DNA of 32,531 nt from an uncultured Actinomycetes bacterium (GTDB lineage: Bacteria; Actinomycetota; Actinomycetes; S36-B12): positions 1 through 32,531 of the forward strand of contig CAJBZP010000011.1 of assembly GCA_903960135.1 (NCBI GenBank), in the 5' to 3' direction. The notes beneath the pieces were generated by a model. That model ran no database searches and had not been told where the DNA came from. It saw nothing but the letters and a program-made list of their open reading frames with translations. Numbering within the stretch: position 1 is the stretch's first letter; the number at the start of each line of letters is the position of its first letter. This document shows, piece by piece, positions 16,728-32,531 of this stretch. Both the position numbers and the translations under genes were made by a program.

Positions 16728-17645
16728 CTAACTCGTGCGTACGCATACTCCGGCAGCGGCTTCCAGCACCAATAACGCTGCCAGACGCACGGTGCGCGCA
16801 TCTGGTGCATCGATCGTGGCATCAACCTCGGTGATATCAAGGGACGACACGCGAGGGTCGGCCGCTACCAAGAACGCTGCCTGTCGCAATTCGTCGGCGC
16901 TGATCCCACCCGGCGCGGCGGCCGGGCAGGCCGGTACCACGGAACGATCACAGACATCAACATCTAGATCGACGTGGATCGGGCCGCCGCCAGCCCCGGC
17001 AATGGCCAGCGCCGTCGAAATTACATCAGCCATCGACCTAGTGCGAAGGGATGCGCGAGTGATGACCGTGATGCCCAAATCGCGTGCGCGCGCCGCGTAC
17101 TCCGGCGAGTTCGAGTAGTCGGCAATCCCGATCTGCACCACCCGGGCCCCCGCTAGCCCAGCTTCAATCAACCGGCGAACTGGCGAGCCGTTGGTTTCGC
17201 CATCGCGCAAATCATGATGTGCATCAAGGGTTATCAAGCCCGCCTGTGAAATCTTTTCACCCCACACCCCGAGGGCCACCGAATAGGTGATGGAGTTATC
17301 GCCGCCGAGTGCGATCAGGAAACCAAGATTTGGCTGCGCATGCGCAAGGCGGGTCATCACCCGCTTTTCGCCGGCCGGCCCGTCCGGCTCCTCGATATCT
17401 CCGGCGTCTACCAACCGCATAGTTGCGAGGTCAACCCCGTGTTCCGCCGAATAGGTGGAGTAGCGAAGAAGCGCCGCACGAACGGCTGCTGGCGTTGCGT
17501 GGGCACCCGTCGCGCTGATCGAGGTACGCCACGCTGGCACCCCGATCAAGGTTAGATCCGCAGCGCTTTCATCGGCCGACGAAAAAAGGTGGCCGGCCCG
17601 CGGCCAGCGCGGATCATTCGGAAGCGTCGTCGAGCTCATGCCCAC
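16728..17645 (-). CDS. hutG: Formimidoylglutamase (arginase/ureohydrolase family)
   Basis: This 305-residue ureohydrolase is predicted to hydrolyse N-formimino-L-glutamate to glutamate and formamide, the last step of histidine degradation. Manganese-binding motifs are visible: DAHHD (141-145) and DVDVCD (228-233), followed by PACPAAAPGG (238-247). The first motif reads GGDNS (114-118), so the usual His ligand is Asn117. The Hut role rests on context: the gene follows an IclR regulator by 7 bases and is divergent from hutUIH, which supply its substrate. The start is GTG 17645 or ATG 17639; the ribosome-binding site AAGG fits the GTG slightly better. An agmatinase-type activity is the main alternative. 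Confidence 0.83.
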   Translation of the reverse strand: MGMSSTTLPNDPRWPRAGHLFSSADESAADLTLIGVPAWRTSISATGAHATPAAVRAALLRYSTYSAEHGVDLATMRLVDAGDIEEPDGPAGEKRVMTRLAHAQPNLGFLIALGGDNSITYSVALGVWGEKISQAGLITLDAHHDLRDGETNGSPVRRLIEAGLAGARVVQIGIADYSNSPEYAARARDLGITVITRASLRTRSMADVISTALAIAGAGGGPIHVDLDVDVCDRSVVPACPAAAPGGISADELRQAAFLVAADPRVSSLDITEVDATIDAPDARTVRLAALLVLEAAAGVCVRTS

Positions 17646-17652
17646 TTCGCCT

Positions 17653-18438
17653 TCATACCGCGCCTTCCTTCATTCCCATTCGCCGCGAGAGTTCGACGGC
17701 CGCTCGAATGGCGGCAGCCGCAAGCCTAGAGTGTTGCGCGCGGGAAGCGACTTTATCGGGGAACGTGACCCCAATCGACGCGACCGGACGATGATTGTGG
17801 TCGCGTACGGCCACGGCTACCGAGGAGAACCCGGCGGTCACCATCCCCCGCTCCTGCGCATAGCCAAGGGCCCGTTCCTCCTGAAGGAGGCGGCGTAACT
17901 GCGGTAATGACATCGGGCCGACCCCGGTGCGATCGACGAAGGCGCTTTGGTTCGGGAACAGGGCGCGCACCTGGGCTGCCGGCAGGTACGCCAGCACGGC
18001 CCGCCCCGACGCCGTCAATGAAGCTGGTAACCGAACCCCAACTTCAGCCACGATGGTGATCGGGCGTTTAGTTGATTCCTTTAACAGGTAAAGGGTTTCC
18101 CGGCCATGCAGGACACCAAGATGTGCGGCCAATGGGGTGGTGCTCCCGGCCTCCGCAACCAGCCGCGCCAATAATGGTCGAGCCAAACGCTCCAATGGCT
18201 CGTGGCGCAGGTAGGCGGCCCCGATTTCAAATGCGGTCACCCCAAGGCCCCACCGGCGCTCCTCCGGGAAATGCACCACGAAGCCTTCTTGCTCCATAGC
18301 CGCAAGTAGGTGATAGGTCGAGGAGCGCGGCAGCCCAAGTGCCGCCCCGAGCGCCCCCGCTGTCATCGGGCCGGGGGCCTGGGCCAGTGCCCGAAGTGCC
18401 CCCATGGCCCGGGTTGCTGCTGGTGCGTTCCCGGCCAC
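17653..18438 (-). CDS. hutR: IclR-family regulator of histidine utilisation
   Basis: This 261-residue protein has an N-terminal IclR winged helix-turn-helix (about residues 5-60, with [15 protein letters not shown] as recognition region) and a C-terminal IclR effector domain (about 75-255, with [13 protein letters not shown]). GGAG lies 5 bases before the GTG start. It stands at the head of hutG and is divergent from hutUIH. In Corynebacterium the hut genes are controlled by an IclR-type activator, HutR. A close match to that regulator's recorded operator lies just upstream of this gene, so HutR is a well-supported assignment by analogy. The effector is probably histidine or urocanate, but this is not shown. 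Confidence 0.85.
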
Positions 18439-18450
18439 CTGACTCCAAAA

Positions 18451-18464
18451 TCTCGTATTTCAGA
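18451..18464. promoter_or_regulatory. Candidate HutR operator between hutR and hutU
   Basis: Minus strand TCTGAAATACGAGA matches TCTGwwATwCCAGA, the HutR motif I recall from Corynebacterium resistens, at 13 of 14 positions. It starts 12 bases upstream of hutR. An AAGATA (18478-18483) placed as a -10 for hutU would put the site near -33 of the divergent promoter, a position compatible with activation. Confidence 0.65.
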
Positions 18465-18518
18465 CACTGCCCGGGCCAAGATAGCGCGCGCGGGCACCGA
18501 CCGGAGTCCAATTGCCCT

Positions 18519-20204
18519 ATGAACCCATCATTTGTCAGCGGCCCCCGCCCGGTGCGCGCCGCAACCGGCACCACCTTGACCGCCCGCGGCTGGCAGCAAG
18601 AGGCCGCCCTGCGAATGCTGCACAACAACCTCGACCCCGATGTCGCAGAGCACCCCGATGAGCTCGTTGTCTACGGCGGTACCGGCAAGGCGGCCCGAAA
18701 CTGGGCCAGCTTCGATGCATTGGTACGCACACTGACAAATCTAAAAGCCGATGAGACCATGCTCGTGCAATCAGGTAAGCCGGTCGGCGTGATGCAAACC
18801 CACGAATGGGCACCGCGAGTTCTGATCGCGAACTCAAACCTCGTCGGCGACTGGGCCAACTGGCCGGAATTTCGCCGACTCGAGCATCTTGGCCTCACGA
18901 TGTATGGGCAGATGACCGCTGGTTCGTGGATCTACATCGGCACCCAAGGTATTTTGCAGGGCACGTACGAGACATTTGCTGCCGTGGCTGAGAAAAGATT
19001 CGGGGGCACCCTCGCGGGCACCCTCACAGTTACCGCCGGCTGCGGTGGCATGGGCGGCGCCCAGCCCCTCGCTGTCACGATGAATGAAGGTGTCTGCCTA
19101 GTCATCGATATCGACGGCACCCGCCTTCGGCGCCGAGTCGAGACCCGCTACCTCGACGAGATAGCCGTCAACCTCGATGACGCGATTGACCGTGCATTAG
19201 CGGCGAAGGCGCAGCGCAAGGCGCTATCGATTGGCCTGGTCGGTAATGCGGCCACCATCTTGCCTGAGTTGCTGCGCCGCGATGTTCCGATTGACATTGT
19301 CACCGACCAGACGTCAGCACATGACCCACTGTTCTATATTCCTGAGGATATTGATTTTGCCGACGCCCATGAGTATGCCGACAAGAAGCCGGACGAATTC
19401 ACCGAGCGCGCCCAGGCCTCAATGGCAAAGCATGTAGAAGCGATGGTTGGCTTCATGGATAAGGGCGCGGAAGTCTTTGACTACGGAAATTCGATTCGCG
19501 ATGAAGCCCGCAAAGGCGGGTACAAGCGCGCCTTCGCTTTCCCCGGTTTCATCCCGGCCTACATCCGGCCATTGTTCTGCGAAGGCAAAGGCCCATTTCG
19601 CTGGGTTGCGCTCTCTGGGGATCCGAAGGATATTCATCGCACTGACCGAGCCGTACTCGATCTGTTCCCCGATAACGACCACCTGCGCCGTTGGATCACC
19701 ATGGCCCAAGAACGCGTCGCCTTCCAAGGTCTACCCGCCCGAATCTGCTGGCTCGGTTACGGCGAGCGCGATAAAGCCGGCTTGGCCTTCAATGACCTCG
19801 TTGCCAGCGGTGAAGTTTCCGCACCGATTGTTATCGGCCGCGACCATCTTGATTGCGGGTCGGTGGCATCTCCTTACCGCGAAACCGAGTCAATGCTTGA
19901 CGGATCCGATGCGATCGCTGATTGGCCTCTGCTAAATGCCATGGTCAATATTTCATCGGGCGCCTCGTGGGTTTCTATTCACCACGGCGGCGGGGTTGGT
20001 ATCGGAAGGTCGATCCACGCCGGACAGGTCAGTGTCGCCGATGGCACCCCTCTCGCCGCCCAAAAGCTCGCACGCGTGCTGTCCAACGACCCTGGCATGG
20101 GAGTTATCCGCCACGTTGATGCGGGGTATGACCTCGCGGTCGACGTCGCCCACGAACGTCACGTGCATATTCCAATGCTCGACACCGAGCCGGACTCAGA
20201 GTAA
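18519..20204 (+). CDS. hutU: Urocanate hydratase (urocanase)
   Basis: This 561-residue enzyme converts urocanate to imidazolonepropionate using tightly bound NAD+. The family landmarks are [11 protein letters not shown] near residue 52, the NAD-binding glycine run GCGGMGGAQ (174-182), and Cys410 in [13 protein letters not shown], equivalent to the catalytic Cys of the Pseudomonas enzyme. The length matches the family when the ATG at 18519 is used; an open frame reaches back to 18339 but would run through the operator and hutR. The GGAG upstream is about 12 bases away, which is long. It is the first gene of hutU-hutI-hutH; hutI starts 5 bases after its stop. Confidence 0.95.
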
Positions 20205-20209
20205 ACAGC

Positions 20210-21388
20210 GTGGCGGCTACCGCACTGGTAAATATCGGCACCCTTGTCACCAATGATGCGACCTTGGGTAACGGCACCCTCGGTGTCATCGAAAATGCAG
20301 CCTTGATTTTCGAAGGCGAACAAATCACGTGGGTGGGGCCCGCCACCGAGGCACCGATCGCCGACCAACGAATTGATCTGGCGGGCCGCGCAGTGCTCCC
20401 TGGTTTCGTCGATAGTCATGCCCACCTGATGTTCGCCGGTGACCGCTCCGCCGAGTTCGCCGCTCGGATGGCCGGTAGTCCCTACCACGCAGGGGGCATC
20501 AGAAGCACGGTTGCAATGACACGCGCCGCATCTGATGCGCAATTACAAGAAAATCTCACGCGGTTAGTCAATGAGCTCTATTCAACGGGCATCACCACCT
20601 TTGAGACCAAGTCCGGGTACGGCCTCACGGTCGCCGACGAAAGTCGCGCCCTGGCTATCGCGAGCACAATTACGCCCGAGACGACCTACCTCGGTGCGCA
20701 CGTGGTGCCAGCCGAGTTCGCCGACGACCCGGCCGGCTACGTCGATTTGGTAACTCACGAAATGCTCACCGCTTGCGCTCCGCACGCCAAGTGGATAGAT
20801 GTCTTCTGTGACCGCGGCGCCTTCGACGGTGACCAAGCCCGGGCGATTCTTCGAGCCGGCATAGATCAGGGGTTAATGGCTCGCGTGCACGCCAACCAAT
20901 TACAGGCGGGCCCTGGGATTCAAGTCGCCGTCGAGATGAATGCCGCCTCGGCCGACCATTGCACCCACCTCACCGACACCGACATTGAGTTGCTCGCTGG
21001 TAGTAATACCGTTGCCACCCTCCTACCGGGAGCCGAGTTCGCCACCCGCTCCCCCTACCCCGATGCCAGGCGCCTACTTGATGCCGGGGCGACAGTGGCC
21101 ATCGCAACTGATTGCAACCCGGGGTCTAGCTACACCACCTCGATGCCATTTTGCATCGCGGTCGCGGTTCGCGATATGCACCTAACACCGGATGAAGCAG
21201 TGTGGTCAGCGACCTTAGGTGGCGCCCGGGCCCTGCGCCGAACCGATGTTGGCAGGCTCACCGTGGGTGCGCGGGCCGATATTCTCGCCCTCAATGCCCC
21301 CTCGCACGTGCACCTGGCCTACCGGCCGGGGGTGGACCTGACACATCAGGTCTGGGTCGGCGGCAGAGCGCATAGAGTCGCATCATGA
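20210..21388 (+). CDS. hutI: Imidazolonepropionase
   Basis: This 392-residue amidohydrolase opens the imidazolone ring to give N-formimino-L-glutamate. Metal and catalytic positions are in place: His70 and His72 in DSHAHLMF, His164 in GAHVVPAEF, His227 in RVHANQL, His250 in SADHCTH and Asp301 in ATDCNPGSS. It starts with GTG 5 bases after hutU, and its stop overlaps the hutH start in ATGA, so the three genes form one translationally coupled operon. Length is normal for HutI. Confidence 0.95.
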
Positions 21389-22890
21389 ATACGGTCTCGA
21401 TCGGCAACAGCGGCCTCACCATGGATGAGGTGATCGCCGTTGCCAGGGGGCAGGCCAGCATCACCATCGCTGCGGATGCACTGGCGGCGATGGCCCAAAG
21501 CCGAAAGCAAATCGAAGCCTTAGCCGAGGCGAGCACCCCGGTCTACGGGGTATCAACCGGCTTCGGCGCCCTCGCACAACGACATATTCCTGCGGAACTA
21601 CGCACCCAATTACAGCGTTCACTCATCCGATCGCATGCGGCCGGCACGGGGGCCCCAGTTGAGCGCGAAGTCGTGCGCGCCACCATGACGTTGCGCCTCA
21701 AAACTCTCGCATCAGGTCGCACCGGTGCGCGGCCCCTTGTGGCCCAAACCATGGCCGCCCTACTTAATGCCGGCATTACGCCGGTCGTATACGAGTACGG
21801 ATCACTCGGCTGCAGCGGTGATCTCGCCCCCCTTGCCCACTGTGCCCTCGTCTTGATGGGTGAAGGCGAGGCCACCGACGCAACTGGCGTAGAGCGCCCC
21901 GTAACTGAGTTACTCGCCGAAGCCGGCATCGAACCACTCGAGCTCCACGAGAAGGAAGGCCTAGCACTTATCAATGGCACCGATGGCATGCTCGGCATGC
22001 TCATCATGGCTATCGCAGACCTTGAACACCTGTGCGATATGGCCGACCTCGCCGCTGCGATGAGCGTTGAAGGCCTGCTGGGGACCGATGCAGTATTTCG
22101 CCCAGAACTGCATTTTCCGTTGCGCCCGCACCCGGGTCAAGCACTTAGTGCGGCCCGAATGTATGCGGCACTCGCGGGCTCGGGCATCGTGGCCTCCCAT
22201 CTGGAAAATGATGACCGCGTCCAGGACGCCTACTCACTTAGATGCGCGCCTCAGGTGACCGGTGCCGTGCGCGACACCATCACGCATGCCCGCACCGTCG
22301 CCGAACGCGAACTGCAGGCCCAGATTGATAACCCCGTCGTTCTGGGCGATGGCACCGTCTCAAGCAACGGGAACTTCCACGGTGCTCCGATTGGCTATGT
22401 CCTGGACTTCTTAGCAATCGCGGTTGCCGATCTTGGATCTATCTCCGAACGGCGCACCGACCGCATGCTCGATAAGAACCGCTCCCACGGCCTGCCACCA
22501 TTCTTGGCCGACGACCCCGGTGTTGACTCTGGCTTAATGATCGTGCAATACACCCAAGCCGGGTTGGTGTCGGAGAACAAAAGACTCGCGGTGCCGGCGA
22601 GTGTTGACTCCATCCCGAGCTCGGGAATGCAGGAGGACCACGTGTCAATGGGCTGGCATGCGGCGCGCAAACTACGCACCGCCGTTGAAAATCTCACCGC
22701 CATCATCGCAATAGAGATCATGACAGCAGCCCGCGCCATTGAGTTGCGAGCACCACTTGAGCCAGCACCACGAACCGCCCGAGTGATCGCCGAGCTACGT
22801 AAGAGCGTCCCAGGGCCCGGGCCCGATAGGTTCCTTGCACCAGAGATTGCAGCTACCGTGGCCTACGTGCGGACCGCCAACACAGCGTGA
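21385..22890 (+). CDS. hutH: Histidine ammonia-lyase
   Basis: This 501-residue enzyme removes ammonia from histidine to give urocanate. The electrophilic MIO cofactor would form from Cys143-Ser144-Gly145 in [14 protein letters not shown]; many homologues have Ala-Ser-Gly, and I believe the Cys form also occurs in actinobacterial enzymes. Tyr54 in VYGVSTGFG is the usual catalytic tyrosine. The conserved DNPVV and EDHVSMG-like segments are present further on. It is the last gene of the rightward hut operon, overlapping hutI by 4 bases, and converges with the TSUP gene after a 6-base gap. Confidence 0.95.
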
Positions 22891-22896
22891 ACCCGG

Positions 22897-23853
22897 TCAG
22901 CCACGATCGCTCTTGCCCGAAAGATCGGAAACAGCGCCCGGGTCGTCAAAGTCAGCAAGTGGCTGCTTAACCGGCCACCGAACCAGGACCACGATCAAAG
23001 CTACGACCAGCACCCCACCAGCGAGCACCTCTAGGCGGTTCACGACCGATACTGAAGCAAAGGACAGCACCCCCGCACCGAGTTGCTGAGCCAGAATGAA
23101 GAATGCCATCGCCAAGACAAACCAGCCGAATGCCTTGCGGAGTCGATCCGGATGAACCCGGCCCACAAAACTGCTGCCGACCAAGGCGCCGGCAACGGCC
23201 CCGGCGGTGATAACAAGCGTGACGAGCCAATTAATATGAATTGCGGGATTCCAGCTAACCAAGCCACCGTCACCGAACTTCACCGCGTAGCCCAAGAACC
23301 CCGCAACGGACTTCATCATCACGACTAGCAGTGAGGTGCCAACCGCCATCGGCATCGGCATCCCACCGAGTATCGCCAGGGCCGGCACCACCAAAAAGCC
23401 ACCACCGGCCCCCACTAGGCCGGTAACAAAACCCACCACGGCGCCATCCAGCAAGATCCTAAAGAGCGGCAATCCCGTGTGGTCCTTGGCCTTGATTTTC
23501 TTGCGAACCCGGATCATGGCGATCGCGGTGACCCCCATCATTACCGCAAAGGCCGCCATCAGCAGCGCACTTGGTAAGTGCACACCAATTTGGCCACCGA
23601 TAAACGCACCCACCATCCCGGCCCCACCAAAAATCAGCCCGGTACGCCAGCGCACTCGGTGCCCCCGTGCATGGCCGATTAGACCGAATGCGGATGTCAC
23701 GGCGACCACAAACAGGCTTGCGGCGATGGCGTCCTTGGTGTCGAACCCCATTACGTAGACCAGCAACGGGGTGGTCAGGATTGAGCCGCCGCCACCCAAA
23801 ATGCCCACCGCTAGACCAATGAAGATGGCCAAGGCCCCGGCTAATGCCAGCAT
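22897..23853 (-). CDS. TSUP (TauE/SafE) family membrane exporter
   Basis: This 318-residue membrane protein has two related halves, each starting with a glycine-rich helix: GILGGGGSILTTPLLVY near residue 18 and GLVGAGGGFLVVPALAI near residue 160. About eight helices and a hydrophilic tail follow this plan. TSUP proteins move sulfite, sulfoacetate, sulfate or other sulfur compounds. It is the last gene of the leftward sulfur operon, 50 bases after the soeA-like gene, which suggests export of surplus sulfite or of sulfate. AAGG lies about 9 bases before the ATG. Transport direction and substrate are inferred from neighbours. Confidence 0.87.
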   Translation of the reverse strand: MLALAGALAIFIGLAVGILGGGGSILTTPLLVYVMGFDTKDAIAASLFVVAVTSAFGLIGHARGHRVRWRTGLIFGGAGMVGAFIGGQIGVHLPSALLMAAFAVMMGVTAIAMIRVRKKIKAKDHTGLPLFRILLDGAVVGFVTGLVGAGGGFLVVPALAILGGMPMPMAVGTSLLVVMMKSVAGFLGYAVKFGDGGLVSWNPAIHINWLVTLVITAGAVAGALVGSSFVGRVHPDRLRKAFGWFVLAMAFFILAQQLGAGVLSFASVSVVNRLEVLAGGVLVVALIVVLVRWPVKQPLADFDDPGAVSDLSGKSDRG

Positions 23854-23903: not shown

Positions 23904-26798
23904 CTAACTATCCGGATTCGCATGGAATGCGCGACGTATCGGTTTCACCGGCCGCATCATGAACTCCGGTCGGCGCATCCCCGAAGCACTCGGCCCGGGC
24001 CGGGTCTTGGCGAGCCACTCTTGATAGACCTCGCGCGACCGCTTGGTGTCAACGACGACATCACCATATTGATCCTCGGGATGCGCTTTCTCGATCACGA
24101 CTTTCTGGTGCCAGCACTGCATCCCCGACCACGGATCCGGATGCACCGGGAACGCTAGGTTCTGGTGGACCCCCGGGTCATCCCAATTGATCCGCATTGA
24201 ATCCGGGTCGTCGCTTTCGAATGGCTTGACATGCTCCTTATAGCGCAGGCGCCAGCGGCCATCGTCCATTCGGCCGATATCTACCAGGCCCATCACCCAC
24301 CTGCTCCCCGCGTTCTCCGCGGTGCGCCAGCGGCCCATGTGGTGTGATAGCGCGACAACGCCGGGGCGAATCGCCTCGGTTGACCAGATTCGTGCAACGA
24401 AGTGGCCGATCTCGGTTGTCACTCGAACCATGTCGTCGGTCTTGAGGCCAATGCGCTCCGCATCAATACTGTTCATCCACATCGGATGCTTATTGGAAAT
24501 CTCGTTGAGATACTTCGCATTGCCAGACCGTGTATGAATCAGTGTCGGTAGCCGGAAAGTCGGAATCAACACCATCTCACCGTGGCTCGGATCGATCTGC
24601 GCCGCGGAAACATGTGACTCGATGTAGCCAGGAGTCGCATACTCGGGCCATCCGAAATCGACCATTGTTGACGAGAACAACTCGAGGCGACGCGATGGCG
24701 TCAGCCAGCCCGCGACTTCGCTGCCATCATCAAGGACGACACCGACCGAGCCGGCCTCACCGACCAGTGGCGGCGTTGACTCCATCGTTGTGGGCTTGCG
24801 GAGCACACCTTGTGCATCCGCGGTGGCACCGTCGCGCTCGGCCGCACTAAGTTTGCGCTCATCTTGCCGATACAGATCACTTGCAACTTCATAGGCGCCG
24901 TACTTGCGCATGAACTCCAGGGGCGTTAAGCCCATTGACGCTGCCTTCTCCGGCAACCCGGGCACCGTGTTCTCAAAGATCCAGGAGTAATACTCATCGA
25001 CCGTGATTTTTTCACCCGGACGACCCGGTGCCTCAAAGAACTTGCGGATACCAAGTGAGCCATCGGGGTCGATGCGCCAGGAGAGCTCGAACCAGAATTC
25101 GTTCTCTTCCCATACTTCACCGGGGTTAACATCGCGGGTGTCGGTGAACTTCGCACCCATCTTCTCCATGGCCACCCGCCGGACCGGTTGCCTAAAGCCC
25201 AGCCACTTGCCACCGTACTGCTCATAGGATTGGGTGTCATGGCGCTCAGTGCTATGGCCCATCGGCAGCACATAGTCGGCAAATGACGCAGTCTCTGACC
25301 AAGTGGGCGTTAGGGCCACATGACAACCGACCTTATCTTCATCGGTCAGTGCCTCGATCCACGAGAAACCGTCCGGGTTCGTCCAGATTGGGTTGTAAAC
25401 ACGGGAGAAGTAGACCTCTAGTTTGCCGCGCCCATCTTGCAGGAAGTGCGGCAACAGGATCGACATCTCATTGGTCGACAGCGGAAACTCCGCCGGCCAG
25501 AGCATCTTGTTCCACAGGTCATGGCCGCCGGGCATATCGGGGCCGTGCGGGATGATCTTGTTCCAGCCGTTGGGGCTGGTACCGCCCTTGGTGCCGACAC
25601 TTCCGGTCAAGACTGTTAGGAAGAATAGTGCGCGCGAGACCATCCAGCCGCCAAGGTTGCCCGCGGTCGCAGCACGCCAAACATGCGCCGCTAGCCGACC
25701 ATCGGACTTCGACACAATCTCCGCCAGTTCCGCGATCTGCGCGGCCGGGATTTTGCACTCCTGCGCGGCGTAGTCAAATGTGTATTTCTGATAGTCAGCC
25801 GTTAGGCGGGCCTTAAAAGCCTCGAAGTCCTCCGGGTCAACGTCCGGGTGCATATTGCGCAGGTAGTCGCGCCAGTTCACCCAGCGGTTTAGATAGTCCC
25901 AGGCAACTTTGTCAGTGCGCAGCAAATAAGACGCGATAGCCAATAGCATCGCCGCCTCACTGCCGGGCCATGGTGACATCCACATATCGGCATGCGCCGC
26001 CGTGTTAGACAACCGTGGGTCTACCACCACCAACGTGGCATCGCCGCGAGTCTTGGCCTCCATGATGCGCTGGGCATGGGGATTGAAATAGTGGCCGGCT
26101 TCCAGGTGGCTTGAAATCAGCAGGATTACCTTGGCATTTGCATAGTCTGGCGATGGTCGGTCGTAACCGCCCCACAGGCTGTAGCCAAGTCGCGCACCGG
26201 CTGAACACACATTGGTATGACTGTTATGGCCATCGACTCCCCAAGCAAGCAGTACTCGCTCGGCAAAGCCATCCTCACCCGGGCGACCGACGTGGTAGAT
26301 GACTTCGTCGCGTCGCTCTTCGATAATCGCCTTGCGGATTCGGCCAGCGACCTCATCTAGGGCCTCATCCCAAGAAACCCGCTCGAATTGGTTACTGCCG
26401 CGCGGGCCGACCCGCTTGAGTGGATAAAGAATCCGCTCGGGATCATTTATCTGATTGATAGTTGCCGGGCCTTTCGCGCAGTTGCGCCCACGCGAACCAG
26501 GATGGGCCGGGTTGCCTTCTACCTTTAGAACCTCGTTGGTCTCTTTATCGACATAGGCCAACAAACCACAGGCCGACTCGCAATTAAAGCAAGTAGTTGG
26601 CACCAGCGCATAGTGACGACCGACCTTGCGCGGGTGCGCCTTGGCGTCATACATGATGACGTCATCCCACTGGTCAACCGGTGGATAGTTGGAAAGGGTG
26701 TCGCGGACCCGAAGCCCATAGTGCTCGGGTTGGTCGTCGCCGACCGGTTGGGCCGCCGGGCCGACTGAAACCGAGCTTTTGTACTTACGCGAGCTCAT
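23904..26798 (-). CDS. soeA: SoeA-like molybdopterin oxidoreductase, catalytic subunit (candidate sulfite:quinone oxidoreductase)
   Basis: This 964-residue protein belongs to the complex iron-sulfur molybdoenzyme (DMSO reductase) family. An N-terminal [4Fe-4S] motif is formed by Cys70, Cys73, Cys77 and Cys107 (CFNCESAC and GRNCAKG). The molybdenum ligand is Cys198 in TNVCSAGA, as in SoeA, PsrA and PhsA. There is no twin-arginine signal at the N-terminus, so the enzyme should be cytoplasmic, as for SoeA and unlike periplasmic polysulfide, thiosulfate or tetrathionate reductases. The segments around HPGSRGRNCAKGPATI and YHVGRPGEDG closely resemble SoeA as I remember it from purple sulfur bacteria. 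Neighbours tusA, dsrE2-like and TSUP fit sulfur chemistry. A reductase acting on another sulfur or organic substrate remains possible. Confidence 0.78.
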   Translation of the reverse strand: MSSRKYKSSVSVGPAAQPVGDDQPEHYGLRVRDTLSNYPPVDQWDDVIMYDAKAHPRKVGRHYALVPTTCFNCESACGLLAYVDKETNEVLKVEGNPAHPGSRGRNCAKGPATINQINDPERILYPLKRVGPRGSNQFERVSWDEALDEVAGRIRKAIIEERRDEVIYHVGRPGEDGFAERVLLAWGVDGHNSHTNVCSAGARLGYSLWGGYDRPSPDYANAKVILLISSHLEAGHYFNPHAQRIMEAKTRGDATLVVVDPRLSNTAAHADMWMSPWPGSEAAMLLAIASYLLRTDKVAWDYLNRWVNWRDYLRNMHPDVDPEDFEAFKARLTADYQKYTFDYAAQECKIPAAQIAELAEIVSKSDGRLAAHVWRAATAGNLGGWMVSRALFFLTVLTGSVGTKGGTSPNGWNKIIPHGPDMPGGHDLWNKMLWPAEFPLSTNEMSILLPHFLQDGRGKLEVYFSRVYNPIWTNPDGFSWIEALTDEDKVGCHVALTPTWSETASFADYVLPMGHSTERHDTQSYEQYGGKWLGFRQPVRRVAMEKMGAKFTDTRDVNPGEVWEENEFWFELSWRIDPDGSLGIRKFFEAPGRPGEKITVDEYYSWIFENTVPGLPEKAASMGLTPLEFMRKYGAYEVASDLYRQDERKLSAAERDGATADAQGVLRKPTTMESTPPLVGEAGSVGVVLDDGSEVAGWLTPSRRLELFSSTMVDFGWPEYATPGYIESHVSAAQIDPSHGEMVLIPTFRLPTLIHTRSGNAKYLNEISNKHPMWMNSIDAERIGLKTDDMVRVTTEIGHFVARIWSTEAIRPGVVALSHHMGRWRTAENAGSRWVMGLVDIGRMDDGRWRLRYKEHVKPFESDDPDSMRINWDDPGVHQNLAFPVHPDPWSGMQCWHQKVVIEKAHPEDQYGDVVVDTKRSREVYQEWLAKTRPGPSASGMRRPEFMMRPVKPIRRAFHANPDS

Positions 26799-26835
26799 TA
26801 GTTATGTACTCCCTTTTCCCTTGTTGCAGTCACGA

Positions 26836-28353
26836 TCACGAAAGTGGAACATCCTGAGCGGCCTTTACGAAGACCGTCTCATGCGCCAAGAGCGCCACTT
26901 GGACGACAAGTCCGGCAATTACCCCAAACCAAAGAGACCCACCAAGTGCGACCGGGATCGCAAAGGCCGCTGCAACAACTGCCAGCGCGATCGAGCCACC
27001 CCAAAATGTTCGCGCATAGCGACCGTGGGTGATGCTGTGCGCGGCGACAGATGCATTTTGGGTTTGATGGCGCCCGCCAAATTCAACCGCAACGATCAAC
27101 AGATGCGCGAGAACTCCCGCAATCAGCGCCCAGCCCAGCCAACGGCTAACCGCCGGCTCGGGTGAAAGGACCGCTGCGGCGATCAGCAAAGCCCCTGCAC
27201 CTGTCATGACAGCTTGCGCCAATAGATGCCAAAACAGTGCAGGTGACTGCCAGAGGTCGCGGCCTTCGGCTTGGCCGAACAAGAATGCGGTGTAGCCAGC
27301 GACCATTACCGCGGCCGGAATCGCCGGCCAGGCCAGCCAATAGACGACTTCAGCCAGGCCAAAGACCCCGCCGAGAAAAGTCAACCCGGCAACCCCGGCG
27401 AAAATCCCGAGGAATACCGAACCCCAAACCAACCAAGACCGCGGATTCGGCTTGGTCAAGATGTAGTAGAAGCGCTTGGGCTGCTTGAGATCCCAAACCA
27501 AAAGCACCGCCGTTAAGCCGATGAAGACGGCCCCGATCAAGGGGGCGATGGTAGTAAGCAGCACCGAGCGGTCCGGAGAAGTCAAAATGAGCAGGGCTGC
27601 CAGGGCCACGGCACCGGCGGCTATCGACTTGGTCCAAAGGTAGGTCCACACTTTCCAGCCCCATGGCCTTGGGTGGGCGGTATTCAACGTGGTGCGCGCC
27701 TTGCTCACTGGATCACCCGGTAGGTCCGCGGCTGTCTCCAGCCGCAGCGGGTCGGCATCGGCCCAGAGGTAGGTACCGTCGACGGGCGCGGCCAGTGGGT
27801 CTAGCACCGTGCTATCAGCGCCCACGTAATAGACATTTGGCCGGGTGCCTTGCTCGGGTGTGCGCACGTTCACCGGGGTCAAACTCAAGAATTTACTGAT
27901 GCCACTAGCCGGATCCTCAATATCGCCGACCCAGATCGACTCGGTTGGGCAAACCACCACGCAGGCTGGCTCCAACCCCTGATCGATGCGGTGCGCGCAA
28001 AAATTGCACTTGGCTGCGGTATGAGTGTTCTCATCTATATAGATGGCGTCATAAGGGCAGGCCTGCTGGCAGCTCTTACAGCCAATGCACAAATCGCTAT
28101 CGAAATCGACGATGCCGTCGTCGCGCTTGAATAGCGATTGCGTCGGGCAGATAGTCACACATGGTGCATCGGTGCAGTGGTTGCATCGCATGACGCCCAT
28201 CTCGCGGGTCGTCGAAGGGTACTCACCCTTATCGACGTACTTCACCCAGGTGCGAAACTGTCCCAGCGGCACATTGTGCTCTGTCTTACAAGCCACCGTG
28301 CAGGCATGACAGCCGATGCAGGACCGCTGGTCGATCGCAAACCCATAACGCAT
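26836..28353 (-). CDS. Fused iron-sulfur (SoeB/DmsB-like) and NrfD/DmsC-like membrane subunit
   Basis: This 505-residue protein joins two subunits that are normally separate. Residues 1-140 hold sixteen Cys in four ferredoxin-type clusters: Cys12/15/18/22, 57/60/65/69, 89/92/95/99 and 116/119/131/135. Residues from about 240 form eight or so membrane helices of the NrfD/DmsC type, with DLKQPKRFYYILTKPNPRSWL near 290-310 as family signature. A linker of about 100 residues connects them. It should pass electrons between the catalytic subunit and the membrane quinone pool. It starts 4 bases after tusA and ends 37 bases before the soeA-like gene, so the fusion replaces soeB and soeC in the operon. 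No frameshift or lost stop is apparent in the linker. Confidence 0.85.
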   Translation of the reverse strand: MRYGFAIDQRSCIGCHACTVACKTEHNVPLGQFRTWVKYVDKGEYPSTTREMGVMRCNHCTDAPCVTICPTQSLFKRDDGIVDFDSDLCIGCKSCQQACPYDAIYIDENTHTAAKCNFCAHRIDQGLEPACVVVCPTESIWVGDIEDPASGISKFLSLTPVNVRTPEQGTRPNVYYVGADSTVLDPLAAPVDGTYLWADADPLRLETAADLPGDPVSKARTTLNTAHPRPWGWKVWTYLWTKSIAAGAVALAALLILTSPDRSVLLTTIAPLIGAVFIGLTAVLLVWDLKQPKRFYYILTKPNPRSWLVWGSVFLGIFAGVAGLTFLGGVFGLAEVVYWLAWPAIPAAVMVAGYTAFLFGQAEGRDLWQSPALFWHLLAQAVMTGAGALLIAAAVLSPEPAVSRWLGWALIAGVLAHLLIVAVEFGGRHQTQNASVAAHSITHGRYARTFWGGSIALAVVAAAFAIPVALGGSLWFGVIAGLVVQVALLAHETVFVKAAQDVPLS

Positions 28354-28357
28354 GTAG

Positions 28358-28588
28358 TTACTTCTTTCTGATAGTGAAAGTCAAAACTCCATCTGACTCC
28401 GAGGATGACACAATCTCGTTACCCGTCTGACTGGCCCAAGCTGGAATATCTGATCTCGCGCCCCCATCGGTAGCTTCAAGCCGCACTAGTTCACCTGACT
28501 GCATTTCCTTGGCAGCCTTGGCCACCAACAGCACCGGCATTGGGCACTTTTGCCCACGCGCATCAATAGTCCGATTCACATCGTCCAC
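28358..28588 (-). CDS. tusA: TusA-family sulfur carrier protein
   Basis: This 76-residue protein fits the TusA/SirA/YeeD family. The persulfide-carrying Cys15 lies in RGQKCPMPVL, followed by the TDGG and DIPAWASQTG motifs. It probably carries sulfane sulfur between a donor (rhodanese or DsrE2) and downstream oxidation or biosynthesis. GGAGG lies 7 bases before the GTG start. It is cotranscribed between the dsrE2-like gene and the fused soeBC-like gene. A role in tRNA thiolation is less likely given this context. Confidence 0.9.
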   Translation of the reverse strand: MDDVNRTIDARGQKCPMPVLLVAKAAKEMQSGELVRLEATDGGARSDIPAWASQTGNEIVSSSESDGVLTFTIRKK

Positions 28589-28614
28589 TTTTTACCTCCC
28601 CAGGTTATATAAGT

Positions 28615-29118
28615 CTAAATGAAAAGATTGATTTGGCTTTTCGACATGCGGGCTAGCGCGGTGGCCGCACCCGCGGGCTCACCCAATCCGTCGATCATCT
28701 GTTCAGGCTTGATACCAAGTAGATCCATGGTCATCTGACATGGCCACATATTCACTCCCATGTCCTGACACATCACGAAAAGATCCTCGGGCGGCAGCAG
28801 ATTATTTTTCTTCGCAACTTTGCGCATCATCCAGTGCCCCATGCCGCCCATTTCCATTTTCGAGAGCTTGGCTTTCTTCATCCCCGGGGCATTCATCCCG
28901 GCCAGCATTTTGGTCATCGCATCATGACCTGTGATCCGAACGTCATCTTTAACGAGTGGGAATAATCCCCAGAAAGTAAAGAAGACTGTTACGTCCATTC
29001 CATTTGCCGCAGCGGTCGAACTCAGAATCACCGTCGGCCATAACTTATCTAGGTCTCCACTGAAGGCGATGATTGTCATCGACTCAGGATTTTTGTCACT
29101 ATCCTTCTCGGCCATCAT
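28615..29118 (-). CDS. DsrE2-like (DsrE/F/H family) sulfurtransferase
   Basis: This 167-residue protein resembles the DsrE2 group of the DsrE/F/H fold. Conserved features include GHDAMTKML, the Met-rich segment SKMEMGGMGHWMM, and the pair Cys117 (FVMCQDMG) and Cys127 (PCQMTMDLLGI), the second being the position expected to carry persulfide. DsrE2 proteins are found with TusA and rhodanese in sulfur-oxidising prokaryotes, as here. The start is ATG 29118 (or the adjacent ATG 29115), after GAGAGGA. It is the first gene of the leftward operon and is divergent from the rhodanese-dioxygenase gene, across a gap that contains an AT-rich promoter zone. Confidence 0.83.
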   Translation of the reverse strand: MMAEKDSDKNPESMTIIAFSGDLDKLWPTVILSSTAAANGMDVTVFFTFWGLFPLVKDDVRITGHDAMTKMLAGMNAPGMKKAKLSKMEMGGMGHWMMRKVAKKNNLLPPEDLFVMCQDMGVNMWPCQMTMDLLGIKPEQMIDGLGEPAGAATALARMSKSQINLFI

Positions 29119-29199
29119 TGTGTCCTCTCCAAGGCGCCGTGAACGCAAACGTAGGGCCTGAGGCCTTGAAGGGCAAGCGTTTTGGCTACTCCGGAGAAA

Positions 29200-29284
29200 T
29201 AAAATTTATTAAGATATTTTCCGATTTTTTGTATATTTGGCAGATCAATCAGTATTAGAGTCTGCGCATATACACATTTGCGCA
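29200..29284. promoter_or_regulatory. Divergent sulfur-island promoter with paired TGCGCA palindromes
   Basis: The 29119-29297 gap is strongly AT-rich over 29199-29238, unlike the rest of the window. For the rightward gene TTGTAT (29229-29234) and TATTAG (29253-29258) are spaced 18 bases, fitting -35 and -10. Immediately downstream two copies of the self-complementary hexamer TGCGCA (29263-29268 and 29279-29284) stand 16 bases apart. The pair would sit at or just after the transcription start and is a candidate operator for the ArsR-type regulator. No clear leftward promoter was fixed, although the AT-rich core could serve both directions. Confidence 0.5.
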
Positions 29285-29297
29285 TTCTGGAGGCTAC

Positions 29298-30428
29298 ATG
29301 TCGCGCACGGTAACCAGCCAAGAGCTGTACGAGGAAATTGAGCACGGGTCGGTCCCGATGATCCTTGATGTGCGCAACCAAGATGAGTTTGCGGCCTGGC
29401 GGGTTGAGGGAAACAAGCCCGTTCCGACCCGAAATGTCCCTATTTGGCTGGCAGTTGAAGACATTGAGGCGTTGGCCAAGGAGATACCGGACAACACCGT
29501 CGTCATCTGTGCTCATGGCAACGGCAGTGACCTCCTGCTTGACATGCTCGCCGCCGAAGGAAGAAAGACACGCAATCTCACTGGCGGTACCCAAGCTTGG
29601 GCCGCACTTCTTATCGCCAAGGAATTGGATTGCTTGCCTATCGGGTTGGTAGGTTGGCAAATTCAGCGTCCGGCCAAAGCCTGCATCTCTTATGTCATTG
29701 GGGTTCCGGGCCAAGGCGCGATAGTTGTTGACCCAGCGCGATTTCTTGATACCTATCTGGAGCTTTCGCAAAGCCAAGGCATGACGATCAGGCATGTCAT
29801 TGATACCCACGTGCACGCCGATCATGTGACCGGCGGTCCGGCTCTGGCGCAATTGACCGGTGCCACCTACCACGTTCCGATTGAGGACACCGGCGGTAAA
29901 ACCCCGTTCCCGAATGAGCCCCTTGCTGATGGCGCGCGACTGGACCTTGGCGACATCACCATCGAAACATTGGCGATCAAGATGCCCGGGCACACCCCAG
30001 GCACCACCTGTGTGCACGTGCCCGGGAGTTTGCTCCTCACCGGCGACACGGTTTTCGTGCGCGGTGTAGGCCGGCCAGATCTCACCGGGAAGGCCGATGA
30101 GCTCGCTCGCGAGCTCTTCCATACAGTTCACGACCGGTTGCGTCCGTTGGATCCTGCGACGCGAGTCTTGCCTGCGCATTGGTCCACTGACGAGGAGATG
30201 GGCGCGGACGGGCTCGTTAGCACGGACCTTGAGTCGGTCTTCACCTCGCTTTTGATGCAGGAAGAAGACCTCACGGCCTTCGTGGAGGCAATCATTAGTT
30301 CGCTGCCGAGCGCGCCTGATATCTACGACACCATTCGTCTGGTTAATTCCGGCCAATCGGCAACCGATGAGGAAATCGAAATTCTTGAGATCGGGAAGAA
30401 TCAATGCGCTGCCTCCACCACGACATAA
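29298..30428 (+). CDS. Rhodanese-persulfide dioxygenase (ETHE1-like) fusion
   Basis: This 376-residue protein has an N-terminal rhodanese domain (about 5-112) with Cys71 in the loop CAHGNGS, and a C-terminal metallo-beta-lactamase domain (about 118-340). The second domain shows HVHADH (171-176), His232 in PGHTPGTTC, Asp250 in LTGDTVF and His294 in LPAHW. These are the ligands of the mononuclear-iron persulfide dioxygenases of the ETHE1/Blh/CstB group. The likely reaction is low-molecular-weight persulfide plus oxygen giving sulfite and thiol. GGAGG lies 4 bases before the ATG. In the fusions I know (CstB, bacterial PRF) rhodanese is C-terminal; here it is N-terminal. A glyoxalase II-like hydrolase is the alternative, but rhodanese and the operon argue against it. 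Confidence 0.85.
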   Translation: MSRTVTSQELYEEIEHGSVPMILDVRNQDEFAAWRVEGNKPVPTRNVPIWLAVEDIEALAKEIPDNTVVICAHGNGSDLLLDMLAAEGRKTRNLTGGTQAWAALLIAKELDCLPIGLVGWQIQRPAKACISYVIGVPGQGAIVVDPARFLDTYLELSQSQGMTIRHVIDTHVHADHVTGGPALAQLTGATYHVPIEDTGGKTPFPNEPLADGARLDLGDITIETLAIKMPGHTPGTTCVHVPGSLLLTGDTVFVRGVGRPDLTGKADELARELFHTVHDRLRPLDPATRVLPAHWSTDEEMGADGLVSTDLESVFTSLLMQEEDLTAFVEAIISSLPSAPDIYDTIRLVNSGQSATDEEIEILEIGKNQCAASTTT

Positions 30429-30449
30429 GCACCCCTGACTGGTATTAGC

Positions 30450-30470
30450 CCAACCGGTGAAGTAGGTTGG
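30450..30470. promoter_or_regulatory. Inverted repeat upstream of the ArsR gene
   Basis: CCAACC (30450-30455) and GGTTGG (30465-30470) form a perfect 6-bp inverted repeat with a 9-base centre, 29 bases before the ArsR-type start. It could be an autoregulatory operator or a short mRNA hairpin. Confidence 0.4.
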
Positions 30471-30499
30471 CGGAGTTCGCGCCATGGAGCTGGAGAAAA

Positions 30500-30859
30500 A
30501 TGGATAAGCAGACCTCGCTGGAGATTCACGAGTTGCACGCTCGGATCTGCAAAGCCATCGCCGACCCCAAGCGGCTGCTCATCATCACCGAGTTGCGCAA
30601 TGGGCCGATGACCGTCGGGGAATTATCCGAGGCACTCGAACTCGGACAGTCAAACACGAGTCAGCACCTGGCGATTCTGCGGGATCGCGGTGTGGTCGAC
30701 GCCAACAAAGAAGGGCTCAACGTCTACTACTCCCTTCGCAGTAAGAAAGTTGTTAAGGCTATTGATCTGTTGCGCGAATTTCTGGTGGAACAACTCGACT
30801 ACCAAGTGAAGATCGGGCGGGCCGCGGGCAAATCAGCCGTGACCAGCGGGCGTCGCTAG
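30500..30859 (+). CDS. ArsR/SmtB-family transcriptional regulator
   Basis: This 119-residue winged helix-turn-helix protein has the ArsR fold: ADPKRLLIITELRNGPMTVGEL, then the recognition helix with QSNTSQHLAILRDRGVV and the wing GLNVYYSL. GGAG lies 4 bases before the ATG at 30500; an upstream TTG at 30467 is in frame but poorly placed. It follows the rhodanese-dioxygenase gene by 71 bases and probably controls the sulfur island. Its only cysteine is Cys17, so it lacks the Cys pair used by the persulfide sensors BigR and SqrR and the CxC metal site of ArsR. The signal it senses is therefore unknown. Confidence 0.88.
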   Translation: MDKQTSLEIHELHARICKAIADPKRLLIITELRNGPMTVGELSEALELGQSNTSQHLAILRDRGVVDANKEGLNVYYSLRSKKVVKAIDLLREFLVEQLDYQVKIGRAAGKSAVTSGRR

Positions 30860-30875
30860 TCACAAACCTTGCTCG

Positions 30876-32234
30876 TTACCCGACATAGTGCTTATCGATG
30901 ATGCTGAAGACCTCGTCCAGAATGGCCAAGCCCTCTTTCGCTTCGGTTTCGGTCACGGTGCAAGGTGGGGCAACATGCATGCGGTTGTAGTTGATGAATG
31001 GCATCAGGCCGCGCTTCTTGCATTCGCCGACTAATTCGCCCATGGCCGGTGAGGCTGGGCCGTAACTCTTACCACCGTAGGGTGCAAGTGGCGCCCTCGT
31101 GGCCCGGTCGGTGACGAGATCCAATCCCCAGAACACCCCGAGGCCACGGACTTCACCGATGACGGGGTGGCGTTCTTGTAGTTCAGCAAGACCAGGGCCG
31201 AGCACTTTCTCGCCAATCATCGCGGCATTTTCAACAATGCCCTCCTCCTTCATGGCATCAAGGGTTCCGATGATGGATGCACAAGCCAAGGGATGCCCGG
31301 AGTAGGTGAGCCCGCCCGGGAATACGCGTTCATCGAAGGTGGCAGCAATGTGGTCGGCAATGATTACCCCACCTACTGGCACATAACCAGAGTTGGAGCC
31401 CTTCGCAAAGGTGACTAAATCCGGCACCACATCAAAATGCTGAAAGGCGAACCACTTGCCGGTTCTACCAAAGCCCGACATAACTTCATCGGTGATGAAG
31501 ACAATCCCGTATTTATCGCAGATTGCGCGCACACCTTGAAGGTAGCCAGGGGGCGGCACGAGGATCCCCGAGGTGCCAACTACCGACTCGATCAAGATAC
31601 AAGCGATGGTGTCTGGGCCCTCAAAAATGATCACCTGCTCGAGGTGCTCAAGTGCCCGCTGGCTCTCCTGCTCTGGGCTGGTTGACCAAAATGGCGTGCG
31701 GTAAAGATAAGGGCCGAAGAAGTGCACATGTTGCGAGGCGTATTCATTTGGCCAGCGGCGCGGATCCCCGGTAGCCGCAATTGCCGCCCCGGTATTGCCA
31801 TGGTAAGAGCGATAGAAAGAAAGAACCTTGTGCTTATGGGTGTGAATTCGTGCCATCCGAATGGCATTTTCGATTGCGTCAGCGCCACCGTTGGTGAAAA
31901 AGACCTTATTCAGATTAGGTGCGGCTAAATCGGTGATGCGCTGCGCGGCCCCATTGCGCGCATCATTGGCGTGCTGGGGCGCGATCGTTGAAAGTTTGGC
32001 GGCCTGATCTTGGATTGCCTTGACGACCTTAGGGTGCTGATGGCCCACATTGGTGAAAACTAATTGTGAGGAGAAATCAAGGAATCGGTTACCGTCATAG
32101 TCCCAGAAGTAACTTCCTTCGGCGCCGGCAACGCACATCGGGGCCAACGCACCCTGAGCGCTCCAGGAATGAAAGACGTGGGCGCGATCCATCTCAAGGA
32201 CGCGCTTACCCTCTTCTGGGTTAGGTTCGATCAT
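30876..32234 (-). CDS. Class III aminotransferase, probably taurine/omega-amino-acid type
   Basis: This 452-residue fold type I aminotransferase has the class III pattern FITDEVMSGFGRTGKWFAF with Asp249 for the pyridine nitrogen, and the PLP-binding Lys278 in TFAKGSNSGYVPVGG. The N-terminal AHVFHSWSAQ and C-terminal MHVAPPCTVTE resemble actinobacterial enzymes annotated as taurine:pyruvate or taurine:2-oxoglutarate aminotransferase, but this is recalled resemblance and not proof. Other omega-amino donors such as beta-alanine or GABA are possible. AGGAG 8 bases before the ATG at 32234 fixes the start, although the frame is open to 32390 inside the ABC gene. It follows an ABC ATPase of the sulfonate/taurine/nitrate type by 28 bases and converges with the ArsR gene. 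Confidence 0.82.
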   Translation of the reverse strand: MIEPNPEEGKRVLEMDRAHVFHSWSAQGALAPMCVAGAEGSYFWDYDGNRFLDFSSQLVFTNVGHQHPKVVKAIQDQAAKLSTIAPQHANDARNGAAQRITDLAAPNLNKVFFTNGGADAIENAIRMARIHTHKHKVLSFYRSYHGNTGAAIAATGDPRRWPNEYASQHVHFFGPYLYRTPFWSTSPEQESQRALEHLEQVIIFEGPDTIACILIESVVGTSGILVPPPGYLQGVRAICDKYGIVFITDEVMSGFGRTGKWFAFQHFDVVPDLVTFAKGSNSGYVPVGGVIIADHIAATFDERVFPGGLTYSGHPLACASIIGTLDAMKEEGIVENAAMIGEKVLGPGLAELQERHPVIGEVRGLGVFWGLDLVTDRATRAPLAPYGGKSYGPASPAMGELVGECKKRGLMPFINYNRMHVAPPCTVTETEAKEGLAILDEVFSIIDKHYVG

Positions 32235-32262
32235 TGGTCCGGCTCCTATTACTTGGGCACTA

Positions 32263-32531
32263 TTAGTGGCTGTGCTGGATGGCGTTGCGCACCCGCTCGC
32301 GCAACTCCAAGAAGGCCGGCAACGATCTGATTTCTTCCGCCGCGATGACCTCGCCGGGCTTGGAGAAAATAGCCGCCTCGTCGAAAACAATTTTGCCTGG
32401 GCGCGGACTCATGACGAGGACTCTTGAGCCAAGGAAAACGGCCTCATCGACACTATGGGTAATGAAAAGAATCGTCTTGCCGGTCTTGCGCCAGATATCA
32501 AGAAGTTCATTTTGGAGGCGCTCGCGCGTTA
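32263..32531 (-). CDS. ABC transporter ATP-binding protein (SsuB/TauB type), C-terminal part
   Basis: About 88 C-terminal residues are present; the 5' part lies beyond the window edge. The visible sequence runs from TRERLQNELLDIW through the H-loop FITHSVDEAVFLGSRV and VLVMSPRPGKI, a pattern typical of ATPases that power sulfonate, taurine, nitrate or pyrimidine uptake. It ends in a TAA (complement of 32263-32265) just ahead of the aminotransferase gene, and the two are very probably cotranscribed. Permease and binding-protein genes would be expected to the right of the window. The substrate cannot be deduced from this fragment alone. Confidence 0.8.
   Translation of the reverse strand, partial: TRERLQNELLDIWRKTGKTILFITHSVDEAVFLGSRVLVMSPRPGKIVFDEAAIFSKPGEVIAAEEIRSLPAFLELRERVRNAIQHSH

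Follow-up and report, generated by a model that had tools for sequence, protein, structure and literature searches.

A putative fused SoeBC-SoeA sulfite:quinone oxidoreductase beside persulfide and taurine genes in an uncultured Nanopelagicales actinobacterium

The DNA analyzed here (the window) is one entire contig, C11 (32531 b), of a 2.32-Mb genome assembly belonging to Candidatus Nanopelagicales. It carries a sulfur gene island centered on soeA, which encodes a molybdoenzyme, and soeBC, which encodes its iron-sulfur and membrane partner in a single protein. Taken as a whole, the evidence indicates that SoeBC-SoeA probably acts as a hub that oxidizes toxic sulfite supplied by two modules, one for persulfide, with a rhodanese-persulfide dioxygenase fusion (Rhd-PDO), and one for taurine, with the enzyme Xsc.

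The substrate assignment draws on the distribution of these genes in a set of 59 related genomes, from which one weak SoeA match (29%) was left out. SoeA was present in 22 genomes, and the genomes with an Rhd-PDO ortholog (14) or with Xsc (8) all fell among these 22. Rhd-PDO and/or Xsc accompanied SoeA in 20 of the 22 genomes, compared with none of the 37 genomes lacking SoeA; Fisher tests on these co-occurrences gave 2e-8, 1e-4 and 8e-14, values which overstate the evidence because the genomes are related. Both genes were found together in two genomes, the host (G000) and G007, and neither was found in two SoeA genomes: G002, which is 79% complete and has pta-tau-toa adjoining soe, and G040, which belongs to a different family. 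Since SoeA accompanies two chemically unrelated pathways that share the product sulfite, sulfite is likely to be the substrate of the SoeA-like enzyme, and the proposal of the first-pass annotation that Rhd-PDO is a source of it is likewise supported. The Xsc of the host genome, encoded on contig C62, scored 1033 bits against TIGR03457 (cut-off 676). Two other candidates were considered and rejected. A PF00174 protein (YedY/SorA superfamily) does not account for the pattern, being present both alongside SoeA and in genomes that lack it, and an indirect adenosine 5'-phosphosulfate route was rejected for the host genome, where no aprA scored over the cut-off.

In the window, a leftward operon of dsrE2, tusA, soeBC, soeA and a TSUP gene, with intergenic gaps of 4 to 50 bp, diverges from rhd-pdo and arsR. 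All seven genes were found in the order and on the strands first described; the span given for them (23904-30859) includes six, while the TSUP gene (22897-23853) lies outside it. The features of the island and its right-hand flank are as follows.

22897..23853, minus strand: TSUP (TauE/SafE) permease, probable sulfite/sulfate exporter (PF01925, 162 bits)
23904..26798, minus strand: SoeA-like catalytic subunit, 964 aa, of the molybdenum-bis(molybdopterin guanine dinucleotide) (Mo-bisMGD) type (PF04879, PF00384, PF01568)
26836..28353, minus strand: SoeB-SoeC fusion, four-cluster ferredoxin plus NrfD membrane domain (Fer4 and NrfD Pfam matches)
28358..28588, minus strand: TusA sulfur carrier (PF01206, 81 bits), 4 bp upstream of soeBC
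28615..29148, minus strand: DsrE2-like sulfur carrier (PF13686, 159 bits), with homology placing the start near 29118
29253..29271, minus strand: candidate ArsR-type operator, consensus ATATGCGCAnACGCTAATA (1 mismatch; sole match in the window)
29298..30428, plus strand: fusion of rhodanese and persulfide dioxygenase (metallo-beta-lactamase, MBL) domains (PF00581, PF00753)
30467..30859, plus strand: ArsR/SmtB-type regulator with one conserved Cys (NF033788, 86 bits)
30876..32390, minus strand: class III aminotransferase, probable taurine:2-oxoglutarate aminotransferase (Toa; 6jix match), with homology placing the start inside the open reading frame
32263..32531, minus strand: 3' end of a TauB-like ATP-binding cassette (ABC) ATPase, truncated where the contig stops (assigned from its sequence and from the full tau operon in the corresponding position of G007/L051)

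The island is adjoined at 16728-22890 by hut genes (hutU, hutI, hutH, an arginase-family hydrolase and a regulator), and the same hut genes adjoin SoeA in locus L048. Promoter and terminator scans gave matches at chance level only, and an Rfam scan gave no match.

The first-pass annotation had read the island as one closed route from persulfide through sulfite to sulfate, and comparison with relatives did not support this reading, as a taurine operon adjoins the island. The Toa candidate scored 373 bits against the taurine:2-oxoglutarate aminotransferase 6jix and 245 bits against the next match. G007 shares about 99-100% identity with the host across the island, and beyond toa it goes on with TauB, TauA, TauC, Pta and Xsc, giving the order xsc-pta-tauCAB-toa. 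By this comparison, the aminotransferase and the ABC ATPase fragment that close the window form the last part of the taurine operon, and the presence of Xsc and the start of Pta on contig C62 of the host is consistent with a contig break inside it.

That the island is dedicated to persulfide oxidation, with the adjoining taurine genes unrelated to it, is improbable. It would accord with the finding that most loci of the host family have the persulfide module and no Xsc, and with the sharing of the candidate operator in the divergent gap. However, several sister genomes possess soeBC-soeA-TSUP with no persulfide module: in L023-L026, arsR, rhd-pdo, dsrE2 and tusA are absent and toa lies directly upstream of soeBC on the same strand, at a distance of about 22 bp (L025, L026) or about 100 bp (L023, L024). 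The confinement of Xsc to SoeA genomes (8/8) also speaks against it. In hand-counted tallies for the host family, TSUP is beside SoeA in all 7 resolvable Xsc-type loci but in only 3 of 10 persulfide-only loci, so that TSUP tracks the taurine version over the persulfide-only one.

The proposal that SoeBC and SoeA form a cytoplasmic, quinone-linked complex of the SoeABC type is supported by their sequence features. In SoeA, the N-terminal [4Fe-4S] cysteines (Cys70/73/77/107) are invariant in 31 homologs, as is Cys198, which corresponds to the Mo ligand of PsrA. A hydrophobic N-terminal segment is missing from 124 of 125 SoeA homologs, the exception having one upstream of its plausible start, and no convincing signal segment was found in any. 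SoeBC contains 16 invariant cysteines in four groups, fitting four [4Fe-4S] clusters, followed by an NrfD domain with 8 predicted transmembrane helices and a positive-inside N terminus. Over 120 homologs, the loops on the N-terminus side contain a mean of about 15.2 Lys plus Arg, versus 1.2 on the opposite side, although per residue the two sides differ less (about 0.14 vs 0.06), the opposite-side loops being short. Because of the strong positive-inside bias and the lack of a signal segment, the Fe-S domain and SoeA are predicted to face the cytoplasm. In a structure model of modest confidence (mean predicted local distance difference test score, 72), the first part of SoeBC matches PsrB and the second part PsrC and complex III ActC. 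SoeB and SoeC are not separate but fused in all aligned loci of the lineage, which we read as a variant of SoeABC since the architecture is otherwise kept.

The same architecture is found in PsrABC, and the closest solved chains to SoeA are PsrA and ArrA; bacterial SreA, moreover, clusters with SoeA (PMC10100899). The molybdoenzyme could on these grounds be a thiosulfate, polysulfide, tetrathionate or sulfur reductase working in the opposite direction. We consider this highly improbable, as SoeA scored far under the NCBIfam cut-offs for PhsA (163 bits, cut-off 694), TtrA (121, 1750), ArrA (111, 1600) and the DMSO/selenate family (169, 778). The outcomes that the first-pass annotation had named as refuting its reading, a reductase-clade position of SoeA without sulfite activity or a failure of the genes to co-occur in related genomes, were thus mostly not seen: SoeA stands far from these reductase families by score, and relatives do have the genes together. 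SoeA also lacks a twin-arginine (Tat) signal and is predicted to face inward, the orientation proposed for SoeABC, whereas Psr, Ttr and Arr face outward (PMC8076601). Finally, the partner genes would make sulfite, and the PDO module requires O2.

On the persulfide side, residues invariant in 16 Rhd-PDO homologs include Cys71 of the rhodanese domain, HxHADH, H232, D250, H294, GRPDL and Cys370. The best solved matches are the PDO-type structures 3tp9 and 3r2u and ETHE1 (4chl), at 50-99 bits; a glyoxalase II identity of the MBL domain, with at most 45 bits and outranked by the PDO structures, was rejected. The C-terminal GxNxC tail, which includes Cys370, is conserved and reminiscent of a swinging persulfide-carrying arm. 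The products of tusA and dsrE2 we take to be sulfane-sulfur carriers; the DsrE2-like protein scored 86 bits against NF047629, under its cut-off of 210.

The divergent gap contains ATATGCGCAnACGCTAATA in almost every persulfide-type locus. The copy of the window lies at 29253-29271; 100 shuffles gave no match to the motif, and a search of 2.57 Mb of sequence allowing up to 3 mismatches gave 29 matches, of which the 28 listed all lie in the divergent gap; the same genome is often represented twice, leaving about twenty independent cases. Diverged forms occupy the same gap in Rhodococcus, Nocardioides and Intrasporangium, while the motif is absent from host-genus loci without the persulfide module. 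The neighboring ArsR is the obvious candidate for its binding protein.

From gene content, order, conservation and co-occurrence, together with the predicted orientation and the conserved motif, we infer the following enzyme activities, carrier relay, regulation and export: i) TusA, DsrE2 and the rhodanese domain would collect sulfane sulfur, ii) the dioxygenase domain would convert persulfide and O2 to sulfite, iii) TauABC would take up taurine, from which Toa, Xsc and Pta would make acetyl-CoA and sulfite, iv) SoeA, as part of a SoeABC-type sulfite:quinone oxidoreductase that faces the cytoplasm and has its Fe-S and membrane subunits fused, would oxidize the sulfite, passing electrons through the Fe-S clusters to quinone, v) TSUP would export sulfite or sulfate, and vi) the ArsR-type protein, bound at one operator in the divergent gap, may control both transcripts. 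The main role of the island might instead be to detoxify reactive sulfur and sulfite without gaining energy to a meaningful extent, a possibility that we hold to be unlikely. ArsR control and a TSUP exporter would fit a stress response, and PDO itself conserves no energy; on the other hand, a quinone-linked NrfD complex feeds respiration whatever its purpose, and the taurine operon is catabolic. Detoxification concerns the purpose of the island rather than its chemistry and is compatible with sulfite oxidation by the SoeBC-SoeA hub.

Beyond the host, the arrangement ArsR-RhdPDO / DsrE2-TusA-SoeBC-SoeA was seen in several further genera of its family, in cultured Rhodococcus, Nocardioides and Intrasporangium, and in two more actinobacterial lineages that are distant; recurring so widely, it is far beyond chance. 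In loci more distant still, SoeA adjoins a CstB-like PDO-Rhd, Xsc with SauS (acylating sulfoacetaldehyde dehydrogenase, over the cut-off of NF047625), SuyAB-like pairs, or TusA-DsrE-HdrCB. On one haloarchaeal plasmid, a 17-kb stretch encodes SauS, Xsc, Pta, SoeBC, SoeA and Mrp. Among 61 loci across phyla with at least 5 kb of flank on both sides, 42 have a recognized sulfite-source gene within 10 kb of SoeA, as scored with simple similarity thresholds that are permissive for the PDO-Rhd class. No linked SoeABC was seen in the regions examined of Xsc-bearing proteobacterial plasmids. In a tree built by a quick method with distant outgroups (E. coli DmsA, YnfE/F and NapA), the SoeA of the host family lies next to that of Rhodococcus, and the Xsc-type SoeA of G021 is nested within the persulfide-type SoeA of the host family. 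Since the G021 protein groups in this way, SoeA was apparently inherited vertically while the modules around it were lost or exchanged, the direction of change being our inference.

Several further SoeA neighborhoods are worth recording. In Actinomadura (L116:6820-8326 and L062:5655-7206), a class I fumarase/tartrate-dehydratase-like pair, accompanied by a TSUP permease and an NMT1-like ABC transporter, is divergent from SoeBC-SoeA-Mrp; it could be an unrecognized sulfite-releasing lyase, and a sulfosuccinate-type substrate is our guess. In Amycolatopsis alkalitolerans (L066:13995-19399), SoeBC-SoeA-Mrp is followed by two ArsR genes, TusA, DsrE and HdrC/HdrB-like genes, which suggests a sulfite source of the sHdr type. 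In many actinobacteria outside the Nanopelagicales (e.g. L122:14835-16004) and in haloarchaea, the gene immediately after SoeA encodes the Mrp/NBP35 (ApbC-like) ATPase, which may be a maturation factor dedicated to Fe-S clusters; in the window, SoeA has no such neighbor. One record, L082, encodes a SoeA 94% identical to that of the window in the host-genus gene order, and its label, Bifidobacterium breve, looks wrong.

Several points weigh against the proposed hub. SoeA has no characterized relative in the libraries searched, its tree does not include the SoeA proteins of Allochromatium, Ruegeria and Aquifex, and no assayed enzyme of the fused SoeBC-SoeA lineage was found in the literature. 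About a third of the well-flanked SoeA loci have no recognized sulfite source. In the host, xsc is on another contig, so its linkage to the island is deduced from G007. The ArsR proteins linked to Rhd-PDO share a single invariant Cys, and the persulfide sensors SqrR, BigR, SoxR and sHdrR have two conserved cysteines (PMC12423496, PMC10451225), both of them required according to PMC12423496.

With SoeABC of Allochromatium vinosum, Aquifex aeolicus and Ruegeria pomeroyi, the complex shares a Mo-bisMGD SoeA without Tat signal, a four-cluster ferredoxin, an NrfD anchor and a cytoplasmic face, the last being a prediction here; in R. pomeroyi, soeCBA adjoins pta and tauR (PMC4334477). It differs in having B and C in one protein, in the Mrp/ApbC gene present at many loci, in its coupling to PDO modules, and in its occurrence in Actinomycetota, Thermomicrobiota, Chloroflexota, Bacteroidota and haloarchaea; the groups given for SoeC in a survey of 2021 (PMC8076601) were Proteobacteria, Clostridia and Aquificae only. 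PsrABC and PhsABC have the same three-part architecture, with the folds of PsrB and PsrC fitting the SoeBC model, but differ in their orientation, opposite to that predicted here, in the Tat signal that SoeA lacks, and in family cut-offs far above its scores. Like CstB, BpPRF and Blh, Rhd-PDO joins an ETHE1-like domain to a sulfurtransferase domain; unlike them, it has the rhodanese first and the PDO second, an invariant C-terminal Cys tail, an ArsR neighbor without the second sensor Cys, and coupling to soeABC. All parts of the taurine dissimilation cluster (TauABC, Tpa/Toa, Xsc, Pta, TauE) adjoin the island in G007, the difference being that in relatives without the persulfide module the cluster adjoins soeBC-soeA-TSUP on one strand.

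SoeABC, fusions of PDO with rhodanese and the dissimilation of taurine have each been described before. In open full-text papers, with subscription papers lying outside the search, we found no description of the fused SoeBC lineage in Actinomycetota, of its coupling to Rhd-PDO/TusA/DsrE2, or of module exchange, and the papers found contain no established Soe-type sulfite-oxidizing enzyme in Actinomycetota. The first-pass annotation knew of no described actinobacterial locus of this kind; the combination is not unique to the host, the block itself being public on plasmid pRHL3 of Rhodococcus jostii RHA1, where it bears generic annotations and where soeA is RHA1_RS43835. On balance we lean slightly toward regarding the fused SoeBC-SoeA as a distinct lineage of sulfite:quinone oxidoreductases in Actinomycetota, Chloroflexota, Thermomicrobiota, Bacteroidota and haloarchaea, which would serve as an interchangeable hub for persulfide, taurine, sulfoacetate, sulfolactate and Hdr modules and give freshwater actinobacteria energy from organic and inorganic sulfur.

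If the hub works as proposed, freshwater Nanopelagicales would turn the sulfur of taurine and persulfide into sulfate, with the electrons going to respiration, and the generically annotated "molybdopterin oxidoreductase" genes of Rhodococcus, Nocardioides, Amycolatopsis and others would gain a testable function. The neighbors of SoeA offer a route to new sulfite-releasing enzymes, and the presence or absence of the persulfide module within one genus provides a natural test of how a respiratory enzyme is rewired.

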